Positions 157 to 9,283 of a stretch of 64,000 bases of DNA are shown here, piece after piece. A program made the translations under genes and the position numbers. The notes below the pieces were generated by a model. The model did not search any database, was not told the DNA's origin, and saw only the letters and a list, made by a program, of their open reading frames with translations. How positions within the stretch are numbered: the first letter of the stretch is position 1; each line of letters opens with the position of its first letter. The stretch comes from Pseudomonadota bacterium (GTDB lineage: Bacteria > Desulfobacterota > Binatia > Binatales > Binataceae), in the NCBI GenBank assembly GCA_021324855.1, contig JAJPIG010000007.1, positions 1 to 64,000 on the forward strand, given 5' to 3'.

Positions 157-1386
157 GTGGCAGTAATAGGAAACAAACCTGAGGGGCGTCACGCAGCGCT
201 TAATGTAAGGCTGATAGGCGAAACCGAGGAGCGGCGCAGCGAGGTCAAGAACGTGATCTCGGCGATCGACGATCCGCCGCTCGAGATCAGCGAAGGCGTA
301 CCCGAGGTCGAGTCCCAGGCCAACGGCGATGGCGCGTCGGAACCGCCCGACGTAGTGATGGTGATCTTCAATGGCAATGAAGAAGCCTCGTTGACTTTCC
401 TTCAGGCCCAGGCGGATAGCACTCCGCGCCCCGCCGTATTTGCGATTCTCGGGGAACGGTCGCCGGGCCTGATGCGCCGCGTGTTGCGGGCCGGCGCGGA
501 TGAGTTGCTGTTCATGCCGCTGGTCCAGGAAGACGTAATTCGCGCGCTACTCAAGATCAGCGAAGCGCGCCGGCGCGCCGAGCGGCATCAGGGCGGCATT
601 ATTTTCTCGGTCACCAGCCTGGTGGGCGGGGTGGGCGCAACTAGTCTGGCCGCGAATCTCGGCCTCGCGCTGCACAAGAACATGGACAAGCGCGTGGCGC
701 TCGTCGACCTGGCCCTGCAATCCGGCGGACTCTCGGTGTTCCTCAGCCTGGAACCCGACCGCACGATACTGCCGCTCGCGCGGTTGGAGAAGAAGCTCGA
801 CTCGATTCAGCTCGAATCGGCGCTGACCAAGCACGACTCTGGTGTCTATCTGCTGGCCGCACCCAAGCGGATCGAAGATGCGGAAATCGTGTCCGATGTC
901 CTCATCGGCTCGATCCTCGATCTGATGCGGCATCTGTTCGATTTTGTGATCGTCGATTGTGGGACCCATGTCGACGAGAACTCAGTGGCGGCGTGGGAAC
1001 GCTCCGCCGACGTGCTGTACGTGCTGGATCAGTCAATCGGGGCGACGCGCTGCGCGTGGCGCTTTATCGATCTATTCGGAAAGCTGGGGATCCGGGACGC
1101 CGAGCTGCGTTTCATCCTGAACCGTTTTGATACGCATCATCCAATCACCGAAAAGCAGATCGCGCACACTCTCGCCCGCCCGATCTACGCGCGTATCCCG
1201 CGCGAGGACAAGACGCTGGAGCGCGTGCTGCTGAGCGGAGAAGGCCTCTGGAAGGTGGCTCCCAATGGTCCTTTGGCACGCGCGGTTGACGAACTGGCGC
1301 GGCGCCTGTCAGGGCCCGAAGCGCCGGTCCAGCAGGAGGCGGGGTTGATTGCGCGGCTGTTTTCGGCGGTTGCAACCCGAGGATAA
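157..1386 (+). CDS. cpaE: CpaE/TadZ-like pilus assembly ATPase
   Basis: Receiver-like N-terminus followed by MinD/ParA-type fold with atypical P-loop (SLVGGVGATSLAANLG); followed by cpaF/tadB/tadC. Confidence 0.85.
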   Translation: MAVIGNKPEGRHAALNVRLIGETEERRSEVKNVISAIDDPPLEISEGVPEVESQANGDGASEPPDVVMVIFNGNEEASLTFLQAQADSTPRPAVFAILGERSPGLMRRVLRAGADELLFMPLVQEDVIRALLKISEARRRAERHQGGIIFSVTSLVGGVGATSLAANLGLALHKNMDKRVALVDLALQSGGLSVFLSLEPDRTILPLARLEKKLDSIQLESALTKHDSGVYLLAAPKRIEDAEIVSDVLIGSILDLMRHLFDFVIVDCGTHVDENSVAAWERSADVLYVLDQSIGATRCAWRFIDLFGKLGIRDAELRFILNRFDTHHPITEKQIAHTLARPIYARIPREDKTLERVLLSGEGLWKVAPNGPLARAVDELARRLSGPEAPVQQEAGLIARLFSAVATRG

Positions 1387-1398
1387 GGGGAAAAGGCC

Positions 1399-2766
1399 AT
1401 GAGATTAGCGGAACGCATTTCGCAAAACGCGCCGGGACGCGACCGCGCCGCTTCACTGATTGGCGGCACGCCCTGGCGGACACGCGAAGAGGCGAGCGAT
1501 TCTTCACACGAGTTGAAGATCCAGGTGCACAACCGCCTGTTCGAATCGCTCGACGTCGAGAAGCTCGAAAGCCTCGAGCCCGCGATGGTTGAGAGCAAGG
1601 TCACCACCGCGATCAATGAGACGCTCGACGCGGAGGGCCGGCTGCTTACCGATTCTGATCGCGAGCGCCTGGTCGAGGAGATCAAGAACGAACTCCTTGG
1701 CCTGGGACCACTCGAACCGCTCCTGCATGACGATGAGATCACGGACATTCTGGTCAATGGTCCGAACCAAGTTTACGTCGAGAAGCGCGGTAAGCTGCAC
1801 AGCACCGACATCACGTTTCATGACAATCAGCATCTGATGTTGATTATCGACCGGATCGTGTCGCGCGTCGGTCGGCGCGTCGATGAGGCTTCGCCGATGG
1901 TCGATGCGCGTCTGCCCGACGGCTCGCGCGTCAACGCCATCATCCCGCCGCTGGCGCTCGATGGGCCGTCGCTCTCGATCCGTCGTTTCGGCCGCCGCCG
2001 CTACGATATCGAGGGCCTGCTCGAACGCGAGAGTCTGACCCCCGAGATGGTCAGCTTCCTGCGCGCGATGGTTCGCGCCCGTTTGAACATCATCGTCTCC
2101 GGCGGCACCGGCTCGGGCAAAACCACTCTGCTCAACTGCCTCTCGGCGTTCGTGCCCGAAGACGAACGTATCGTCACGATCGAAGACTCGGCCGAAATCT
2201 CGCTCCAGCAGCCGCATGTAGTGCGGCTCGAAAGCCGGCCTGCGAACCTGGAGGGCAAGGGCGAAGTCACCCAACGCGACCTGGTGCGTAACTCGCTGCG
2301 TATGCGGCCCGACCGTATCATCGTCGGCGAGGTCCGCGGCGCGGAAGTCTTCGACATGCTGCAGGCGATGTCGACGGGTCACGACGGCTCGCTCTCGACG
2401 ATTCACGCAAACAGCGCACGTGAAGCGGTCGGACGCCTCGAGATGATGATGCTGCTGTCGGGATTTTCGATTCCGCAGCGCGCGATGCGTCAGCAGATTG
2501 CCGCCGCCGTCAACGTTTTCGTCCACGTCGCCCGTCTGTCCGACGGCTCGCGCAAAGTGATGAAGATTTCCGAGGTCGCCGGAATGGAAGGCGACACCAT
2601 CATGCTGCAGGACCTGTTCGAGTTCCAACGCAGCGGTGTGAGCCCGAGCGGCAAGGTGCTGGGCCAGTTCCGTGCGACTGGTATCCGCTCGGCCTACACC
2701 GAACGGATCGAGCTGGGCGGCTTCAAGTTCGTCGATTCGCGCCCGCTACGCTCTGTTCAGAGGTAA
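1399..2766 (+). CDS. cpaF: CpaF/TadA family secretion ATPase (Tad pilus)
   Basis: Walker [41 protein letters not shown] motifs of type II/IV secretion ATPases. Confidence 0.95.
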
Positions 2767-2771
2767 GTACG

Positions 2772-3722
2772 ATGGATCTGGCAATTTGTCTACTGGTGTT
2801 TTCGGTCGTGTTCGGCACCGGCCTGATGCTCGTGCGTCAGCGCGAAGCGGTTCCCGAACGCGCCTATCGCAATCTCCAGCGGTTGACCCATGGCTCGGTC
2901 GATGCGGACGGCGATTCGATCATGAACCGTCGCCGCGCGAAGCAACGCGAGGCGCTGTCCTGGCTCTACCGCATGAACCTGCTTCGGCTCCTCGAGAACA
3001 GCCTCTGGCAGGCCGGTATCTACATGCGGCTTTCGGACCTGCTGCTGATCATCGTGTTGATGTTCGGCGCGGGAATCGCGCTCGGGCAGCTCGTTGTCGC
3101 TGATCCGCTGATTTGGTTTGGGATTGGCTGCGGGATGGCCTCGCTGCCGATCATCTATATTCACATCCGCCGCAAGCGGCGTCTTAAGGCGTTCGCCTTG
3201 CAGTTACCCTATGCGCTCGATCTGCTAAAATCTTCGCTCGAGGCGGGACATTCGCTGATGCGCGGGATGCAGGTTGTGGTGCAGGAGTTCGGCGATCCGC
3301 TCGGCGGTGAATTCCGCACCGTGCTCGAGCAGACGCGGATTGGGCTTCCGCTGCCGCGTGCGCTCGAAGACATGCTGACCCGCGTGCCCGAAGATGATTT
3401 CCGCTTGCTCGTGGTCGCGGTCAAGGTGCAGGCCGAGGTCGGCAGCTCGCTCGCCCATATCATCGAGCGGCTGGCCGAGATCGTGCGTACGCGCCAGCGG
3501 CTCCAGGCGCAGATCCTCGCGCTCACGGCACAGTCGCGTCTGAGCGGCATGATCGTCGGCCTGTTGCCGGTCGTGATGCTCGTGGTGTTCAGCGTTCTGC
3601 AACCCTCGTACACCTACACGCTGTTTCACGATCCCACCGGCATCAAGTTGGTTAAGCTCGCCCTCGGGCTCGACGTGCTCGCCTTCCTTATAATCCGGCA
3701 TCTGCTGCGGCCTACCTATTAA
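2772..3722 (+). CDS. tadB: TadB-like type II secretion system F family membrane protein
   Basis: T2SSF-type pattern (LPYALDLLKSSLEAGHSL..., multiple TM segments); order cpaF-tadB-tadC. Confidence 0.85.
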   Translation: MDLAICLLVFSVVFGTGLMLVRQREAVPERAYRNLQRLTHGSVDADGDSIMNRRRAKQREALSWLYRMNLLRLLENSLWQAGIYMRLSDLLLIIVLMFGAGIALGQLVVADPLIWFGIGCGMASLPIIYIHIRRKRRLKAFALQLPYALDLLKSSLEAGHSLMRGMQVVVQEFGDPLGGEFRTVLEQTRIGLPLPRALEDMLTRVPEDDFRLLVVAVKVQAEVGSSLAHIIERLAEIVRTRQRLQAQILALTAQSRLSGMIVGLLPVVMLVVFSVLQPSYTYTLFHDPTGIKLVKLALGLDVLAFLIIRHLLRPTY

Positions 3723-3734
3723 AGGGGAGAGCCA

Positions 3735-4673
3735 ATGTTGGACCCGATACTCATTACCGTCATTTTCCTTTGCCTGTTGGGCGTGGCAGCGGTAGGCATT
3801 TACGCCGCCATGTACGGCAGCCATCGCGTGCTGGAAGACCGTTTTGATGACCTCGCGATGCGCCTGCGAATCGAACACGGCGGCCTCGGCAACGACGATG
3901 CCGAATCCGAGGGCTTGGCGCGCTCGGCATTCGATTGGATTATCCGCCGGATGCCGGCGCCGGACCCCGGCAGCCCCAAAAGCGAGAGATTATCACAGAC
4001 ACTGGTTCAGGCAGGCTTCACCCGCTCCGGCGCTTTACAAGCCTTTCACGCGGTTCGGGTAGTATGCGCGCTGGGAGCCGGACTTGTCGTCCTGCTGCTG
4101 ACGCTCGCGATGGGTTTGCCGAACGTGAGCGCAATTTTTTATGCGATCTGCGCCGGTCTGCTCGGCGCGACCATACCGAGTGTCATCCTGGGTCGGCGCG
4201 CCGCCAAGCGTCAGCGGGAAATCGGCCGCCAGGTGAGCGACGTGCTCGACCTGCTGGTGGTGTGCGTCGAAGCTGGTCTCGGCATCTTCGAGGCGATCAA
4301 GGTCGTCGGGAATGAAACCGAGCGCCAGGAACAGGCCATCGGCAAGGAGCTCGCGCTGGTGTCCAACGAGATCACAGCCGGCCTTTCGCTCGGGCAGGCA
4401 CTCCGCAACATGGCCGAACGCACCGCGGTCGAAGACATCAAGCCGCTCGCGGCAACGCTCATCCAGAGCGAACAACTTGGCGCTCAGATGGCGCCGGCGT
4501 TGCGCGCAATCTCCGACACCTTGCGCAGCCGGCGGCGGCTGCGCGCCGAAGAGGCGGCCCAGAAAACCACCATCAAGATTCTCTTCCCGCTCATCCTGCT
4601 GGTGTTGCCCGCGATGATTATGATGATTGTGGGGCCGGCGATGATTCAGATCGCACGCAGCCTGAGCCCCTGA
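3735..4673 (+). CDS. tadC: TadC-like type II secretion system F family membrane protein
   Basis: T2SSF-type pattern (VSDVLDLLVVCVEAGLGIFEAIKVV), C-terminal TM segments; adjacent to tadB. Confidence 0.85.
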   Translation: MLDPILITVIFLCLLGVAAVGIYAAMYGSHRVLEDRFDDLAMRLRIEHGGLGNDDAESEGLARSAFDWIIRRMPAPDPGSPKSERLSQTLVQAGFTRSGALQAFHAVRVVCALGAGLVVLLLTLAMGLPNVSAIFYAICAGLLGATIPSVILGRRAAKRQREIGRQVSDVLDLLVVCVEAGLGIFEAIKVVGNETERQEQAIGKELALVSNEITAGLSLGQALRNMAERTAVEDIKPLAATLIQSEQLGAQMAPALRAISDTLRSRRRLRAEEAAQKTTIKILFPLILLVLPAMIMMIVGPAMIQIARSLSP

Positions 4674-4707
4674 TTCCACAACGTCAGCTCGTTCCTTCTC
4701 CTCCTGG

Positions 4708-4737
4708 GCGAGGCGCGAAACTTCCACCGCGCCTCGC
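4708..4737 (+). terminator. Perfect 10-bp GC-rich stem-loop downstream of tadC
   Basis: GCGAGGCGCG-aaacttccac-CGCGCCTCGC, 35 bp after the tadC stop; no strong U-tract follows. Confidence 0.5.
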
Positions 4738-4780
4738 TTGCGCTTGACGGCCGCGATGCTTCGCAATATCGGATGATCTT

Positions 4781-5266
4781 ATGGACGACGCGCTCGCGAA
4801 GCGGCAGGCGATCGCACTCTGGAAAGAGGGGATCGGTTTTCAGGCTGCTGGCGATTACCAGCGCGCCATCGAGTTCTACAGCCGTTCAATCGAGCTTCAT
4901 CCAACTGCGGAGGCTTTCACGTTTCGCGGCTGGGCCTATCACTTCCTTGGCCGTATCGATGACGCGATTGCCGAATGCAAGCGCGCGATTGAAGTGGATC
5001 CGGATTTTGGCAATCCCTACAACGACATCGGCGCCTACCTGCTCGCAAAGGGCGACTTCGAAGAGGCGATCGGATGGCTTGAGAAAGCCAAGCTCGCACC
5101 GCGTTACGAACCACGCCACTTCCCGTACATGAACCTCGGGCGTGTTTATGCCGCGAAAGGGATGGTGATGCGCGCGATCGCCGAGTTCGAACAGGCGCTC
5201 AAAATCGCGCCCGGCGAGCCGACCTGCCTTGAAGCGCTCGCCCGTCTGTGCGCCGTCCTCAATTAA
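4781..5266 (+). CDS. Tetratricopeptide repeat protein
   Basis: Repeated TPR helices (DYQRAIEFYSRSIELHP, GRIDDAIAECKRAIEVDPDFG, AIAEFEQALKIAPGEP). Confidence 0.85.
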   Translation: MDDALAKRQAIALWKEGIGFQAAGDYQRAIEFYSRSIELHPTAEAFTFRGWAYHFLGRIDDAIAECKRAIEVDPDFGNPYNDIGAYLLAKGDFEEAIGWLEKAKLAPRYEPRHFPYMNLGRVYAAKGMVMRAIAEFEQALKIAPGEPTCLEALARLCAVLN

Positions 5267-5326
5267 TCGCCTTAAGGTCTGGGCTGCCTTTTTACCGCGA
5301 AGCGGCTTTTGATAGACTCCATTTTT

Positions 5327-6568
5327 ATGGCAGGACCTGAGCAGATCTGGCCGGAAGCGGTCCGCACACTCGAAGCCGGCAAACCCTTCGCACTCGCCAC
5401 AGTGGTCAATGTGCGGGGTTCGACGCCGCGCGAAGTCGGCGCGAAGATGATCGTCAGAACCGACGGTCAGTTCGGCACGATCGGCGGCGGGTGCGGCGAG
5501 GCAGAAGTCTTCCGCAAGGCGCGTCTGCTGCTCGATGAGGGCGAAGGCGCGCGGCTCACTGAAGTCGACCTGACTGGCGACTTCGAGCAGCAGGAGATCG
5601 GTACCTGCGGCGGCATCATGGATGTCTTCATCGAGCTGTGGTCGCCGGAGCGCGATCTCCCGATGGCCCGCAAGCTTGCCGAATCGTCGCGTCGCAATCT
5701 GCCTGGCGCGCTCCTGAGTATCGTCAATCCAGGAACATCCGGGCGCGCCGCACTCGGCGCGCGCGCCGTGATCGATCTCTCTGAAACGCCCGCTTCCGCA
5801 TCTATACTTGGACTCGACCGCGCCGCGCTCCAGCAGCTTCGCGAGCAGGTCGCCGACGCGATACCGGGCCTGCTCGAGGTCGGCTCTGACGGCGTGCTGC
5901 GGCCTGCCGCGCGGATCGATGCGAACGGTGCCGCGCGGCTGTTCGTCGATCCGATCTCGGGTGCTCAGCGTCTGATCATCGCCGGCGCAGGCCATATCGC
6001 ACAGCCGCTCGCGGCGCTCGGCTCGATGCTCGGCTTCCATGTCACGGTTATCGACGATCGAGCGCAGTTCGCCAATCGCGAACGCTTCCCAAGCGCCGAC
6101 GAAATCATAGTGCGCCCGTTCAAGGCCGCGATCGATTCGATCTGGCTCGATCGCCATTGCTACGTGATCTCGGTGACGCGCGGCCACGCCTTCGATGACG
6201 AGGTGGTGCGTGCGGCGCTTCGACAGGCGGCGCGCGACCCACGAATTTTCATTGGGATGATCGGGTCACGCCGGCGCGTCAAGACCACGCTCGAACGAAT
6301 TAGCGCAGACGGTGTGAGCCCCGCCCTGCTCTCCCAGGTGCACGCTCCGCTCGGCGTCGATATCGGCGCTGAGACGCCCGAGGAAATCGCCATTTCCATC
6401 ATCGGCGAGGTGATTCGCGAACGACGCACCCGCGCCCGCGATGATTTCAACCTGGGCGTCAAGCTCGGCCAACTCGAGCGCTCAGAGGGCATCCGCGGCG
6501 GAACCCGGCCGCGTCCGACCGCCGCGGCCGCCGGGCTGCACGAGACCGGCGAGACCGCCGCGAAGTAG
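5327..6568 (+). CDS. XdhC/CoxI family molybdo-enzyme maturation protein
   Basis: XdhC N-terminal motifs (VNVRGSTPREVGAKMIV, GGCGEAEV) and Rossmann LIIAGAGHIAQPLA...VIDDR; ATG at 5327 preferred over the 5309 ORF start. Confidence 0.88.
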   Translation: MAGPEQIWPEAVRTLEAGKPFALATVVNVRGSTPREVGAKMIVRTDGQFGTIGGGCGEAEVFRKARLLLDEGEGARLTEVDLTGDFEQQEIGTCGGIMDVFIELWSPERDLPMARKLAESSRRNLPGALLSIVNPGTSGRAALGARAVIDLSETPASASILGLDRAALQQLREQVADAIPGLLEVGSDGVLRPAARIDANGAARLFVDPISGAQRLIIAGAGHIAQPLAALGSMLGFHVTVIDDRAQFANRERFPSADEIIVRPFKAAIDSIWLDRHCYVISVTRGHAFDDEVVRAALRQAARDPRIFIGMIGSRRRVKTTLERISADGVSPALLSQVHAPLGVDIGAETPEEIAISIIGEVIRERRTRARDDFNLGVKLGQLERSEGIRGGTRPRPTAAAAGLHETGETAAK

Positions 6569-6594
6569 TCAGTCTGGAGCTCGGCGGGGTACCG

Positions 6595-7206
6595 ATGCGT
6601 CTCGAAGGTATCCTGCTTGCGGCCGGCGAATCGCGCCGGATGGGCTACCCCAAGCCGCTGCTCCGAATCGATGACCGCACCTTCCTTGAACAGACAAGCC
6701 TCGCGATGCTCGAGGTTGTGCCGCGGCTGATCGTCGTGATCGGCGCGTGGGCCGATCGGATCCGTCCGCGCGTCCCGGCCGATCCGCGAATCTCGACCGT
6801 CGAAAACCGAGGCTGGTCGCGTGGCCAGCTCTCATCGCTCAAACTCGGCATCCGGGCTGTCAGCGGCATGGCCGATGCCGCGCTGGTCCATCTCGCCGAC
6901 CATCCGCTGGTTCGCGATGAAACGTTTCGGGGTATCGTGCGGTACTACTGCGGCGAAGCCAATCGACCGCCTATTCTTATCGCCCGTTCAGCAGGCCGCC
7001 GCGGCCATCCCGTGATTTTTGCCAAAACGCTTTTTGACGAACTATTGATGGCTTCCGATAGCGTAGGCGCTAAACAGGTCGTAAATCGCGATCCTGGACG
7101 CGTCGCCTACTTCGACGTCGATGATCCCGGAGTCGCCCTTGACCTCGATACCCCCGAGGATCTCACCCGCGCCGGTTTGCCGCCGCCGCCATCGGCTCAG
7201 GATTGA
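6595..7206 (+). CDS. Nucleotidyltransferase family protein (MocA/MobA-like Mo-cofactor cytidylyl/guanylyltransferase)
   Basis: LLAAGESRRMGYPKPLLRID...FLEQ NTP-transferase motif; directly downstream of xdhC-like gene. Confidence 0.85.
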   Translation: MRLEGILLAAGESRRMGYPKPLLRIDDRTFLEQTSLAMLEVVPRLIVVIGAWADRIRPRVPADPRISTVENRGWSRGQLSSLKLGIRAVSGMADAALVHLADHPLVRDETFRGIVRYYCGEANRPPILIARSAGRRGHPVIFAKTLFDELLMASDSVGAKQVVNRDPGRVAYFDVDDPGVALDLDTPEDLTRAGLPPPPSAQD

Positions 7207-7230: not shown

Positions 7231-7256
7231 TGTAACCGAGGTCGGGATATAACGTA
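7231..7256 (+). promoter_or_regulatory. Candidate ECF-sigma promoter (TGTAAC-N16-CGTA)
   Basis: TGTAAC at 7231-7236 and CGTA at 7253-7256, 16 bp spacing, 28 bp upstream of the sigma-factor ATG (7285). Confidence 0.5.
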
Positions 7257-7284
7257 GTACGATTTGGAGCTATGGGGGGTGGAG

Positions 7285-7923
7285 ATGGGACTGGCTTCGA
7301 CTGCAAGATTGGAGAGCGCGGAACGGGTCCGGCCCGATGAGGAGCTGGTCGCCGAGGTCCGCGCCGGTGAGAATGCTGCGTTTGCCGAGCTGGCGAGCCG
7401 CCATCGTCGCCGCATCGAGCATCTCTGCCGCCGTTTCTTCATCGATCAGGAGCTGGTCCGCGATCTGACCCAAGAATGTTTTCTGCGCGCGTTCGCCGGA
7501 CTTGCGAGCTATCGGGCCGAGATGCCCTTCACCGCCTGGATTCGCACGATCGCGGTCAACGCCTGTTACGACGAATTGCGCAGACGGCGCCGCAAGCCCG
7601 AGGAATTGGTCGCCGATTTCACCGTCGGCGAACTCGAGTGGATGGAACTGGTTAGTGACGCGTCTCCCGAGGAGTTGGCCGGCGCCGCCGAGGAGCGGCG
7701 TGAAGCCTACACGCTCGCTCATCGCTTGCTCGCTAGCCTCCGGCCCGAGGATCGGATGGTGCTGGTGCTCAAGGACAGCGAAGAGATGGGCGTGCAGGAG
7801 ATCGCCGAGACGCTCGGCTGGAGCGAGGCGAAAGTAAAAATCCGCGCCTTCAGGGCGCGCCAGGCATTGCGCAAGCAGGCGAGCCGGATGCTCGGCTCGC
7901 GCCGCTTCAGGATTTTCAAGTGA
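7285..7923 (+). CDS. ECF-type RNA polymerase sigma factor
   Basis: Sigma70 region 2 (LVRDLTQECFLRAFAGLASYR...FTAWIRTIAVNACYDELRRRRR) and region 4 (LRPEDRMVLVLKDSEEMGVQEIAETLGWSEAKVKIRAFRARQALRK); ATG 7285 has a GGGGGTGGAG RBS. Confidence 0.92.
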   Translation: MGLASTARLESAERVRPDEELVAEVRAGENAAFAELASRHRRRIEHLCRRFFIDQELVRDLTQECFLRAFAGLASYRAEMPFTAWIRTIAVNACYDELRRRRRKPEELVADFTVGELEWMELVSDASPEELAGAAEERREAYTLAHRLLASLRPEDRMVLVLKDSEEMGVQEIAETLGWSEAKVKIRAFRARQALRKQASRMLGSRRFRIFK

Positions 7924-8351
7924 ACTGCTTTCAGGCTCGAAGGGAATTCCCGAATTTCTGGCGCGAGCGGCTCGCTGAGCCCGTCGCCAACCAACTCGCC
8001 GGCCATCTCGAATGCTGCGGGCTGTGCGAGCAGGCGTACCGGCTCTTCGCGCTGACCGCGCCCGTGATGCATTCGGATGCCGAGGCGGTCGATGCGATGC
8101 TGGGCGGCGAAGATGCAGTCCGGCGGCCGCGGCGAATGCCAAGCGTCCAAGCCGGCGATGCGGCCGAACAGCGTGGGATGATCTGGACGGCGCTCTCGAT
8201 GCTGGTTGCGGCCAGCGTAATCGCCTATATCGCCGCGGCCACGCCCAGGGAGAGCCTGATCGACGCGCTTACCAACAGCCGCCCGGCGAGCGCGATTTCG
8301 GCGGTCCAGGAACCGCCCGCTTACTCTTTCCTCGACGACTTTGCCGGCTAG
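7920..8351 (+). CDS. Putative membrane anti-sigma factor with zinc-binding ZAS/zf-HC2 motif
   Basis: HLECCGLC (Hx3Cx2C), central TM (MIWTALSMLVAASVIAYIAAA); 4-nt overlap with sigma gene; GTG start. Confidence 0.72.
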   Translation: MNCFQARREFPNFWRERLAEPVANQLAGHLECCGLCEQAYRLFALTAPVMHSDAEAVDAMLGGEDAVRRPRRMPSVQAGDAAEQRGMIWTALSMLVAASVIAYIAAATPRESLIDALTNSRPASAISAVQEPPAYSFLDDFAG

Positions 8352-8715
8352 TCGAAACTGGTGGACGGTGGCGAGCGCCGTCGCGTCCGGAATTCTGGTC
8401 GGCTTCGCGGCGAGCACCATCGCCTATCGATTGCAGCTTCTGCGCGTGCCCGCCAACGGCGTCGTGCAGCGGATGGACCGCGATCTTCATTTGACACCCG
8501 CCCAGAAGACCCGCATCGCCGAGGTGCTGGATAATACTCGCGCCCACATCGGCGAGCTTCGCGATCGCTTCGAGAGCCAGCGTCAACAGGCGCTCAGCGA
8601 TGCTTTCAATCAGATTCGCGCTTCGCTGACCCCCGCTCAGCAGCGCGATTTCGACCGGCTTTACAACCCGAGCGGTATCTCTCTGTCCAAACCGGCGCAA
8701 CAGGCCCGGCAGTAG
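8341..8715 (+). CDS. Membrane-anchored periplasmic sensor-like protein (Spy/CpxP/CnrX-type helical protein)
   Basis: N-terminal TM then paired LTPAQ motifs (LHLTPAQKTRIAEVLDNTR..., RASLTPAQQRDFDRLY); overlaps anti-sigma gene; TTG start. Confidence 0.6.
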   Translation: MPASRNWWTVASAVASGILVGFAASTIAYRLQLLRVPANGVVQRMDRDLHLTPAQKTRIAEVLDNTRAHIGELRDRFESQRQQALSDAFNQIRASLTPAQQRDFDRLYNPSGISLSKPAQQARQ

Positions 8716-8716
8716 C

Positions 8717-9283
8717 TCACGACGGGCCCATCTCCGCGATCAGCTTGTTGGCTTCCGCCGCCGCGTTCGGATTATGCGCGGCGTCCGCGGCCGCCTGCCG
8801 CAGGTACTTGAGCGCCTCGGTGCGACTTCCCTGCTGGGCGAGAATCTGGCCGATTCTGAGCGCCGCGAAAGACGAACTCGGATCGAGAGCGTAAGCCTTG
8901 CGATAGTAGTTCAGCGCGTCCTCGAGCTTGGGCGGCACGAATGACATGTAGGCTTCGCCGATATTGAGGTAGACCGTGGGCTGCTTGGGCTCATACTTCG
9001 CAAGCTTCTGATAGACTTCGACCACCTTCGGGAAATCCGATCGCGAGTTATAATACAACCCGAGATAGACGTAAGCCTCCTCGAACCCCGGATCGATATC
9101 GGTCGCTTGCCAGAGCAGCTTCAATGCCTGAGCGCTGTCGGTCATGTTAATCGCCGCATTGACCAGCGACTGCGCCTTCTCGGCATTGGCATCTTGGGCG
9201 CGGACCGGCATCACGCTCATCGCAGCGCTTGCGAGGACCGCGAGCAGTATCGAAAAGGCGAGCCTTCGGATAGCCGAGCGCAT
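8717..9283 (-). CDS. Secreted tetratricopeptide repeat protein
   Basis: Signal peptide (LAFSILLAVLASAAMSVMPVRA) and TPR pattern (AYVYLGLYYNSRSDFPKVVEVYQKLAKYEPKQP). Confidence 0.75.
   Translation of the reverse strand: MRSAIRRLAFSILLAVLASAAMSVMPVRAQDANAEKAQSLVNAAINMTDSAQALKLLWQATDIDPGFEEAYVYLGLYYNSRSDFPKVVEVYQKLAKYEPKQPTVYLNIGEAYMSFVPPKLEDALNYYRKAYALDPSSSFAALRIGQILAQQGSRTEALKYLRQAAADAAHNPNAAAEANKLIAEMGPS

Follow-up and report, generated by a model that had tools for sequence, protein, structure and literature searches.

A putative envelope-stress switch of an ECF sigma factor, a zinc-type anti-sigma factor and a membrane-anchored LTXXQ protein in Binataceae

A soil bacterium of the Binatota, a poorly known and uncultured phylum, encodes three overlapping genes, for an ECF sigma factor, a zinc-type anti-sigma factor and an LTXXQ (Spy-family) protein with a predicted membrane anchor, which are inherited together across the family Binataceae and lie behind a conserved ECF-type promoter. 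On balance we favour the view that this locus is a self-contained envelope-stress switch, similar in logic to RseB and CpxP, in which the tethered Spy-like protein gates the anti-sigma factor. The module probably senses envelope damage, and the best reading of the evidence is that it is not a sensor of nickel or cobalt. The window analysed is a stretch of 64,000 nucleotides (contig JAJPIG010000007.1 of assembly GCA_021324855.1) from a 3.7-Mb draft genome, and its relatives in the family are labelled Candidatus Binataceae, Candidatus Binatus or Deltaproteobacteria MAGs.

Gene organization of the locus

The module consists of three plus-strand open reading frames, the second of which starts with GTG and the third with TTG. 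The sigma and anti-sigma genes overlap by 4 nt, and the anti-sigma and LTXXQ genes by 11 nt. An earlier note, made from the sequence alone, had reported the same frames, starts and overlaps, all of which are present as described; the first base that it named, 7231, is also where the conserved promoter begins. The features of the locus and its flanks are as follows.

6595-7206, + strand: MobA/MocA-like nucleotidyltransferase, left flank, outside the module (Pfam PF12804); its neighbour is the module in relatives that have it and the TPR gene in those that lack it
7231-7256, + strand: ECF-type promoter, TGTAACC (7231-7237), N15, CGTA (7253-7256), upstream of the sigma gene in 30/30 family orthologues
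7285-7923, + strand: ECF sigma factor, 212 aa, with regions 2 and 4, RpoE/SigW-like (Pfam, NCBIfam, profile against PDB)
7920-8351, + strand: anti-sigma factor, 143 aa, GTG start, with an N-terminal ZAS domain, one TM segment and a periplasmic tail of ~35 aa, as predicted from the family alignment and from zf-HC2 in 18/20 orthologues
8004-8027, + strand: zinc motif HLECCGLC (H29 x3 C33 x2 C36), with partner C3 at codon 3; invariant in 20/20 orthologues
8178-8240, + strand: predicted TM segment of the anti-sigma factor, residues about 87-107, a hydrophobic run after an Arg-rich stretch
8341-8715, + strand: LTXXQ (Spy-family) protein, 124 aa, TTG start, membrane-anchored by prediction, proposed sensor/regulator (PF07813, family profile, AF2)
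8356-8430, + strand: predicted N-terminal anchor helix of the LTXXQ protein, residues 6-30 (AF2 helix, hydrophobic)
8491-8505, + strand: first LTPAQ motif, L51-Q55; in the family alignment L51 is invariant and T52 and Q55 are conserved in at least 90%
8626-8640, + strand: second LTPAQ motif, L96-Q100, 45 residues past the first; L96, P98 and Q100 are invariant
8717-9283, - strand: TPR protein, convergent, right flank, outside the module (Pfam, gene order in relatives)

Of 25 relatives, 20 retain the LTXXQ start at -11 within the anti-sigma gene (19 as TTG, one as GTG), and in L025 and L027, where the TTG has become TTA, an ATG arises 6 nt upstream. The retention of the TTG, together with its replacement by an ATG in these two loci, supports a real, weak and coupled start, and the conserved overlap suggests that synthesis of the LTXXQ protein is coupled to that of the anti-sigma factor.

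Inheritance as a unit within Binataceae

When 58 relatives were searched with the LTXXQ protein it was recovered from 25, all of the same family, and a profile search over 41 family genomes then found it in 31. In each of the 23 further family loci that had enough contig on both sides the three genes adjoin one another, as they do in one more in which the sigma gene is cut by a contig end, an arrangement far beyond chance. With sigma orthologues defined by E below 1e-70, sigma factor and LTXXQ protein co-occurred in 31 genomes; in a 32nd (G010) the contig ends where the LTXXQ gene should be, in G005 a contig end truncates the sigma gene, and both genes are absent from nine family genomes. The earlier note had proposed a module of sigma factor, ZAS anti-sigma factor and Spy-superfamily protein, to be refuted if the third gene proved absent or unlinked in relatives; the module survived this comparison, and its genes are linked wherever the contig allows a check.

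In seven of the nine genomes that lack the module the MocA-like and TPR genes are directly adjacent, with gaps of 15-318 nt between aligned ends versus about 1.5 kb; the other two (G012 and G008) have the MocA-like gene near a contig end and were left out of the empty sites. Because this adjacency is seen where all three genes are absent, the module is gained or lost as one block, and the empty sites place its limits at the three genes plus the promoter. The seven genomes group together in a tree of the flanking genes, so a single loss could explain them.

The XdhC- and MocA-like molybdenum-cofactor genes (window positions 5309-7206) lie ahead of the module in most of the family genomes examined, and genomes without the module still have them in place. 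No metal efflux genes were found beside the module in the Binataceae flanks, which consist of the XdhC-like, MocA-like and convergent TPR genes. Upstream of these, on the plus strand at window positions 157-4673, is a Flp/Tad pilus-like cluster in which CpaE-, CpaF-, TadB- and TadC-like ORFs were recognized by eye.

The sigma factor and its promoter

The sigma factor passes the Pfam models Sigma70_r2 (59 bits) and Sigma70_r4_2 (49 bits), and a profile of the family compared with PDB matched RpoE, AlgU and SigW structures at 1e-25 to 1e-28 and CnrH at 1.4e-15; an NCBIfam search with the sigma factor gave no equivalog above its cut-off. The promoter upstream of the 30 family orthologues examined can be written as [TC]G[TA]AAC[CG]-N15/16-CGTA, with a spacer of 15 in 22 loci and 16 in eight, and the distance from its end to the sigma start codon is 13 to 28 nt, in most loci 16. 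Scanned on both strands, the 207,630 bases of the 30 loci contain the exact form TGTAACC...CGTA 25 times, every time at the sigma promoter site. This layout is that of an ECF autoregulatory promoter of the RpoE type, and its presence in all orthologues examined predicts autoregulation, with the sigma factor transcribing its own operon. The distance of about 16 nt from the -10 element to the start codon further predicts a very short 5' leader and a nearly leaderless mRNA.

The anti-sigma factor and the LTXXQ protein

The window's own anti-sigma factor matches no Pfam family, and 18 of 20 family orthologues match zf-HC2. C3, H29, C33 and C36 are invariant in the alignment of all 20. The zinc motif described in the earlier note as Hx3Cx2C is thus invariant, with two amendments: the cysteine pair is C33/C36, C32 being extra, and a conserved candidate for the fourth ligand, C3, had been missed. 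By this motif, the upstream ligand and its place beside its sigma gene, the protein can be assigned from sequence to the ZAS, or class-I zf-HC2, type, and it is a putative binder and inhibitor of its cognate sigma factor. The part beyond the predicted TM segment, about 35 residues, is poorly conserved in the family. CnrY was not among the PDB matches of the anti-sigma family profile.

The LTXXQ protein, the only one found in its genome, passes Pfam LTXXQ (PF07813) with 34.8 bits against a cut-off of 24.3, in an HMM search that the earlier note had proposed, and carries two LTXXQ motifs, at residues 51 and 96. Against PDB, the family profile matched Spy at E 2.8e-8 and CpxP weakly at 0.13, and CnrX was absent from the matches; of the earlier description as "Spy/CnrX-like", the first half is supported by the profile and the second is not. 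AF2 modelled an anchor helix followed by a helical hairpin with a long central helix (pLDDT 83 for the whole protein and 90.5 for the domain alone), and Foldseek searches of PDB with the full model and with the domain gave no significant match, including to Spy, CpxP and CnrX. No AxA or lipobox site was seen in the N-terminal helix.

Pfam Metal_resist is also matched, weakly, by 19 of 20 LTXXQ orthologues. In their alignment no column has His in more than five of the 20 sequences and none has Cys in five or more, and the sole frequent Met column (17/20) has Ile or Leu in the remainder. The lack of a conserved His bears out a doubt already raised in the earlier note, that the signal might not be nickel or cobalt, and a non-metal signal is likely.

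The same gene order in other phyla

A genome collection was searched with the sigma alignment, yielding 79 sigma-related loci. An LTXXQ gene lies 670-960 nt past the sigma gene, with a TM anti-sigma gene between them, in Acidobacteriota (including Pyrinomonadaceae), in two MAGs labelled Nitrospiraceae and in one labelled Verrucomicrobiaceae; in the Chloroflexi loci among the 79 the LTXXQ gene does not follow the sigma gene. A cultivable organism with this gene order is Pyrinomonas methylaliphatogenes K22 (locus L111). The zinc motif is present in nine and absent in 11 of 20 non-Binatota triads, and since the LTXXQ protein is kept throughout, it is the constant partner and the zinc is optional. 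In two acidobacterial loci, L092 (2932-3968) and L129 (1-781), the LTXXQ gene directly follows the sigma gene with no anti-sigma gene between; there the LTXXQ protein may control the sigma factor unaided, or an anti-sigma factor encoded at a distance may do so.

These loci raise the broader idea, which we advance tentatively, of an ECF switch class found across phyla, in which a membrane-tethered Spy-like protein would be the constant input, gating anti-sigma factors with or without zinc, and in which the occupancy of a chaperone by its clients would directly control a sigma factor.

Several acidobacterial loci have further features. A similar motif, GTAACC-N17-CGTA, is found upstream of the sigma gene in L097, L098 and L102, and in these thermophilic acidobacterial loci (L098 at 4545-6419) an HlyD/MacA-like efflux adaptor gene comes after the three-gene module. 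L089, L095, L100, L101, L104 and L112 have another LTXXQ gene, which lies upstream of the sigma gene.

Proposed mechanism and alternatives

In the mechanism that we propose, the ZAS domain of the one-TM anti-sigma factor would hold the sigma factor at the inner membrane, and the third protein, a Spy-like helical hairpin tethered to the membrane, would take over sensing, as is suggested by the short and poorly conserved periplasmic tail of the anti-sigma factor. In unstressed cells the LTXXQ protein would contact the anti-sigma factor, by its tail or TM segment, and stabilize the inhibited complex. Under stress, unfolded or mislocalized envelope protein would fill the Spy-like surface and titrate the LTXXQ protein away, and the sigma factor would be freed when the anti-sigma factor is proteolysed or changes conformation. 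The freed sigma factor would transcribe its own operon from TGTAACC-N15/16-CGTA, and coupled translation, by producing inhibitor and sensor along with the sigma factor, would allow the response to shut itself off.

This arrangement resembles RpoE-RseA-RseB (MucA/MucB) in having an RpoE-like sigma factor, a one-TM anti-sigma factor, a third protein on the periplasmic side, the same operon order and autoregulation, but its third protein is a predicted membrane-anchored member of PF07813 instead of the RseB (MucB) fold, and its anti-sigma factor is of the zinc type with a short periplasmic tail. With CpxP and Spy it shares the two LTXXQ motifs and, in the AF2 model, a helical hairpin, and CpxP negatively regulates an envelope-stress sensor; those proteins, however, are free in the periplasm and act with the kinases CpxA or BaeS, whereas the protein described here appears to be anchored and is encoded beside a sigma/anti-sigma pair.

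The main rival to this mechanism, which we regard as rather unlikely, makes the LTXXQ protein an output, a membrane-tethered Spy-like chaperone produced when the sigma factor is active, with sensing located elsewhere, for example in cleavage of the anti-sigma tail by a protease. Envelope stress induces Spy, itself a chaperone, and the LTXXQ gene sits in a predicted autoregulated operon and encodes the only such protein found in the genome. The gene order in L092 and L129 also points this way, since an LTXXQ protein with no anti-sigma gene beside it may have a function different from gating an anti-sigma factor. Bulk chaperones, however, are usually soluble and abundant, whereas this protein is predicted to be tethered to the membrane; the conserved weak TTG within the anti-sigma gene suggests low, stoichiometric synthesis, and its gene is linked with those of regulators, not with further chaperone genes. 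A sensing role for the anti-sigma factor itself could take another form, cytoplasmic redox sensing at the zinc site in the manner of RsrA or ChrR, with the LTXXQ protein as a modulator. The four residues invariant in Binataceae are the ligand set of zinc anti-sigma factors, as this would need, but the membrane anchor of the anti-sigma factor and the 11 triads without the zinc motif in other phyla, which show that the motif is not essential to the arrangement, make redox sensing improbable.

CnrX of Cupriavidus metallidurans is a membrane-anchored periplasmic Ni/Co sensor of the CnrYXH module (PMC7689651). The earlier note had likened the locus to this system, and the anatomy is indeed that of CnrYXH and NccYXH, a three-gene ECF module with a membrane-anchored periplasmic protein of the Spy/CpxP/CnrX superfamily and a membrane anti-sigma factor. 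The likeness did not extend further. Membership was rejected on four features, namely a sigma factor that is RpoE/SigW-like, nearer to RpoE/AlgU/SigW than to CnrH, a class-I zinc (zf-HC2) anti-sigma factor where CnrY has no zinc motif, a sensor without conserved His or Cys whose profile finds Spy and not CnrX, and the lack of an attached RND efflux operon; the gene order also differs, being sigma, anti-sigma, sensor as against Y-X-H. Metal sensing of the CnrYXH kind, in which the LTXXQ protein would bind metal and release the sigma factor, is consistent with the shared superfamily and anatomy, with the weak Metal_resist matches and with the HlyD-like adaptor in L097 and L098; set against the absence of conserved His or Cys, the exchange of the one frequent Met for Ile or Leu in some orthologues, the absence of CnrX from the profile's PDB matches, a sigma factor unlike CnrH and Binataceae flanks free of efflux genes, it seems to us the least probable of the readings.

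A search of the open literature found no description of a zinc anti-sigma factor with an LTXXQ partner, and the one comparable case was the RpoE8 operon of Azospirillum brasilense, which comprises a sigma factor, a hypothetical protein and a "periplasmic heavy metal sensor" and is noted as upregulated by RpoE6 (PMC12826043). As reported there, the operon is like the present one in combining an ECF sigma factor with a small unknown protein and a Spy/CnrX-type protein. The reclassification of ECF sigma factors (10.1093/nar/gkaa1229) may already list the arrangement.

With a predicted promoter and natural empty sites the boundaries of the module are exact, which makes it movable to a laboratory host, and it would give Binatota a first envelope-stress circuit that can be tested and whose promoter sequence is defined. 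Members of the Spy family have known roles as a free chaperone (Spy), a kinase modulator (CpxP) and a metal sensor (CnrX). If the proposed mechanism is correct, the occurrence of a tethered member without metal ligands in the sigma/anti-sigma operons of several phyla would suggest that the Spy fold serves as a general plug-in sensor of envelope state.

Candidate targets beyond the operon

Genome-wide, the exact promoter pattern was about as frequent as a reversed-pattern control, the operon's own site apart, and it did not point to any clear regulon of periplasmic chaperone or protease genes. Three candidate targets emerged, none of which holds across the family, and no regulon is therefore claimed. 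One is a secreted 137-aa protein of unknown family, encoded in 40 of 41 family genomes; several genomes from three genera (L211, L213, L239; genera g15 and g10) have the strict pattern 46-64 nt before its gene, and others have relaxed forms. Another is a glycosyltransferase, with the pattern in one genus. The third, confined to the genus of the window, is an OmpA-family protein; there the motif lies between uvrB and the OmpA-family gene, with about 420 nt separating it from the OmpA-family gene downstream, in L207 (G000:C10:100804-100829) and L209 (G001:C122:951-976). Rfam found no RNA in the stretch between this distal motif and the OmpA gene, and the motif itself is kept between the two genomes in otherwise diverged DNA.
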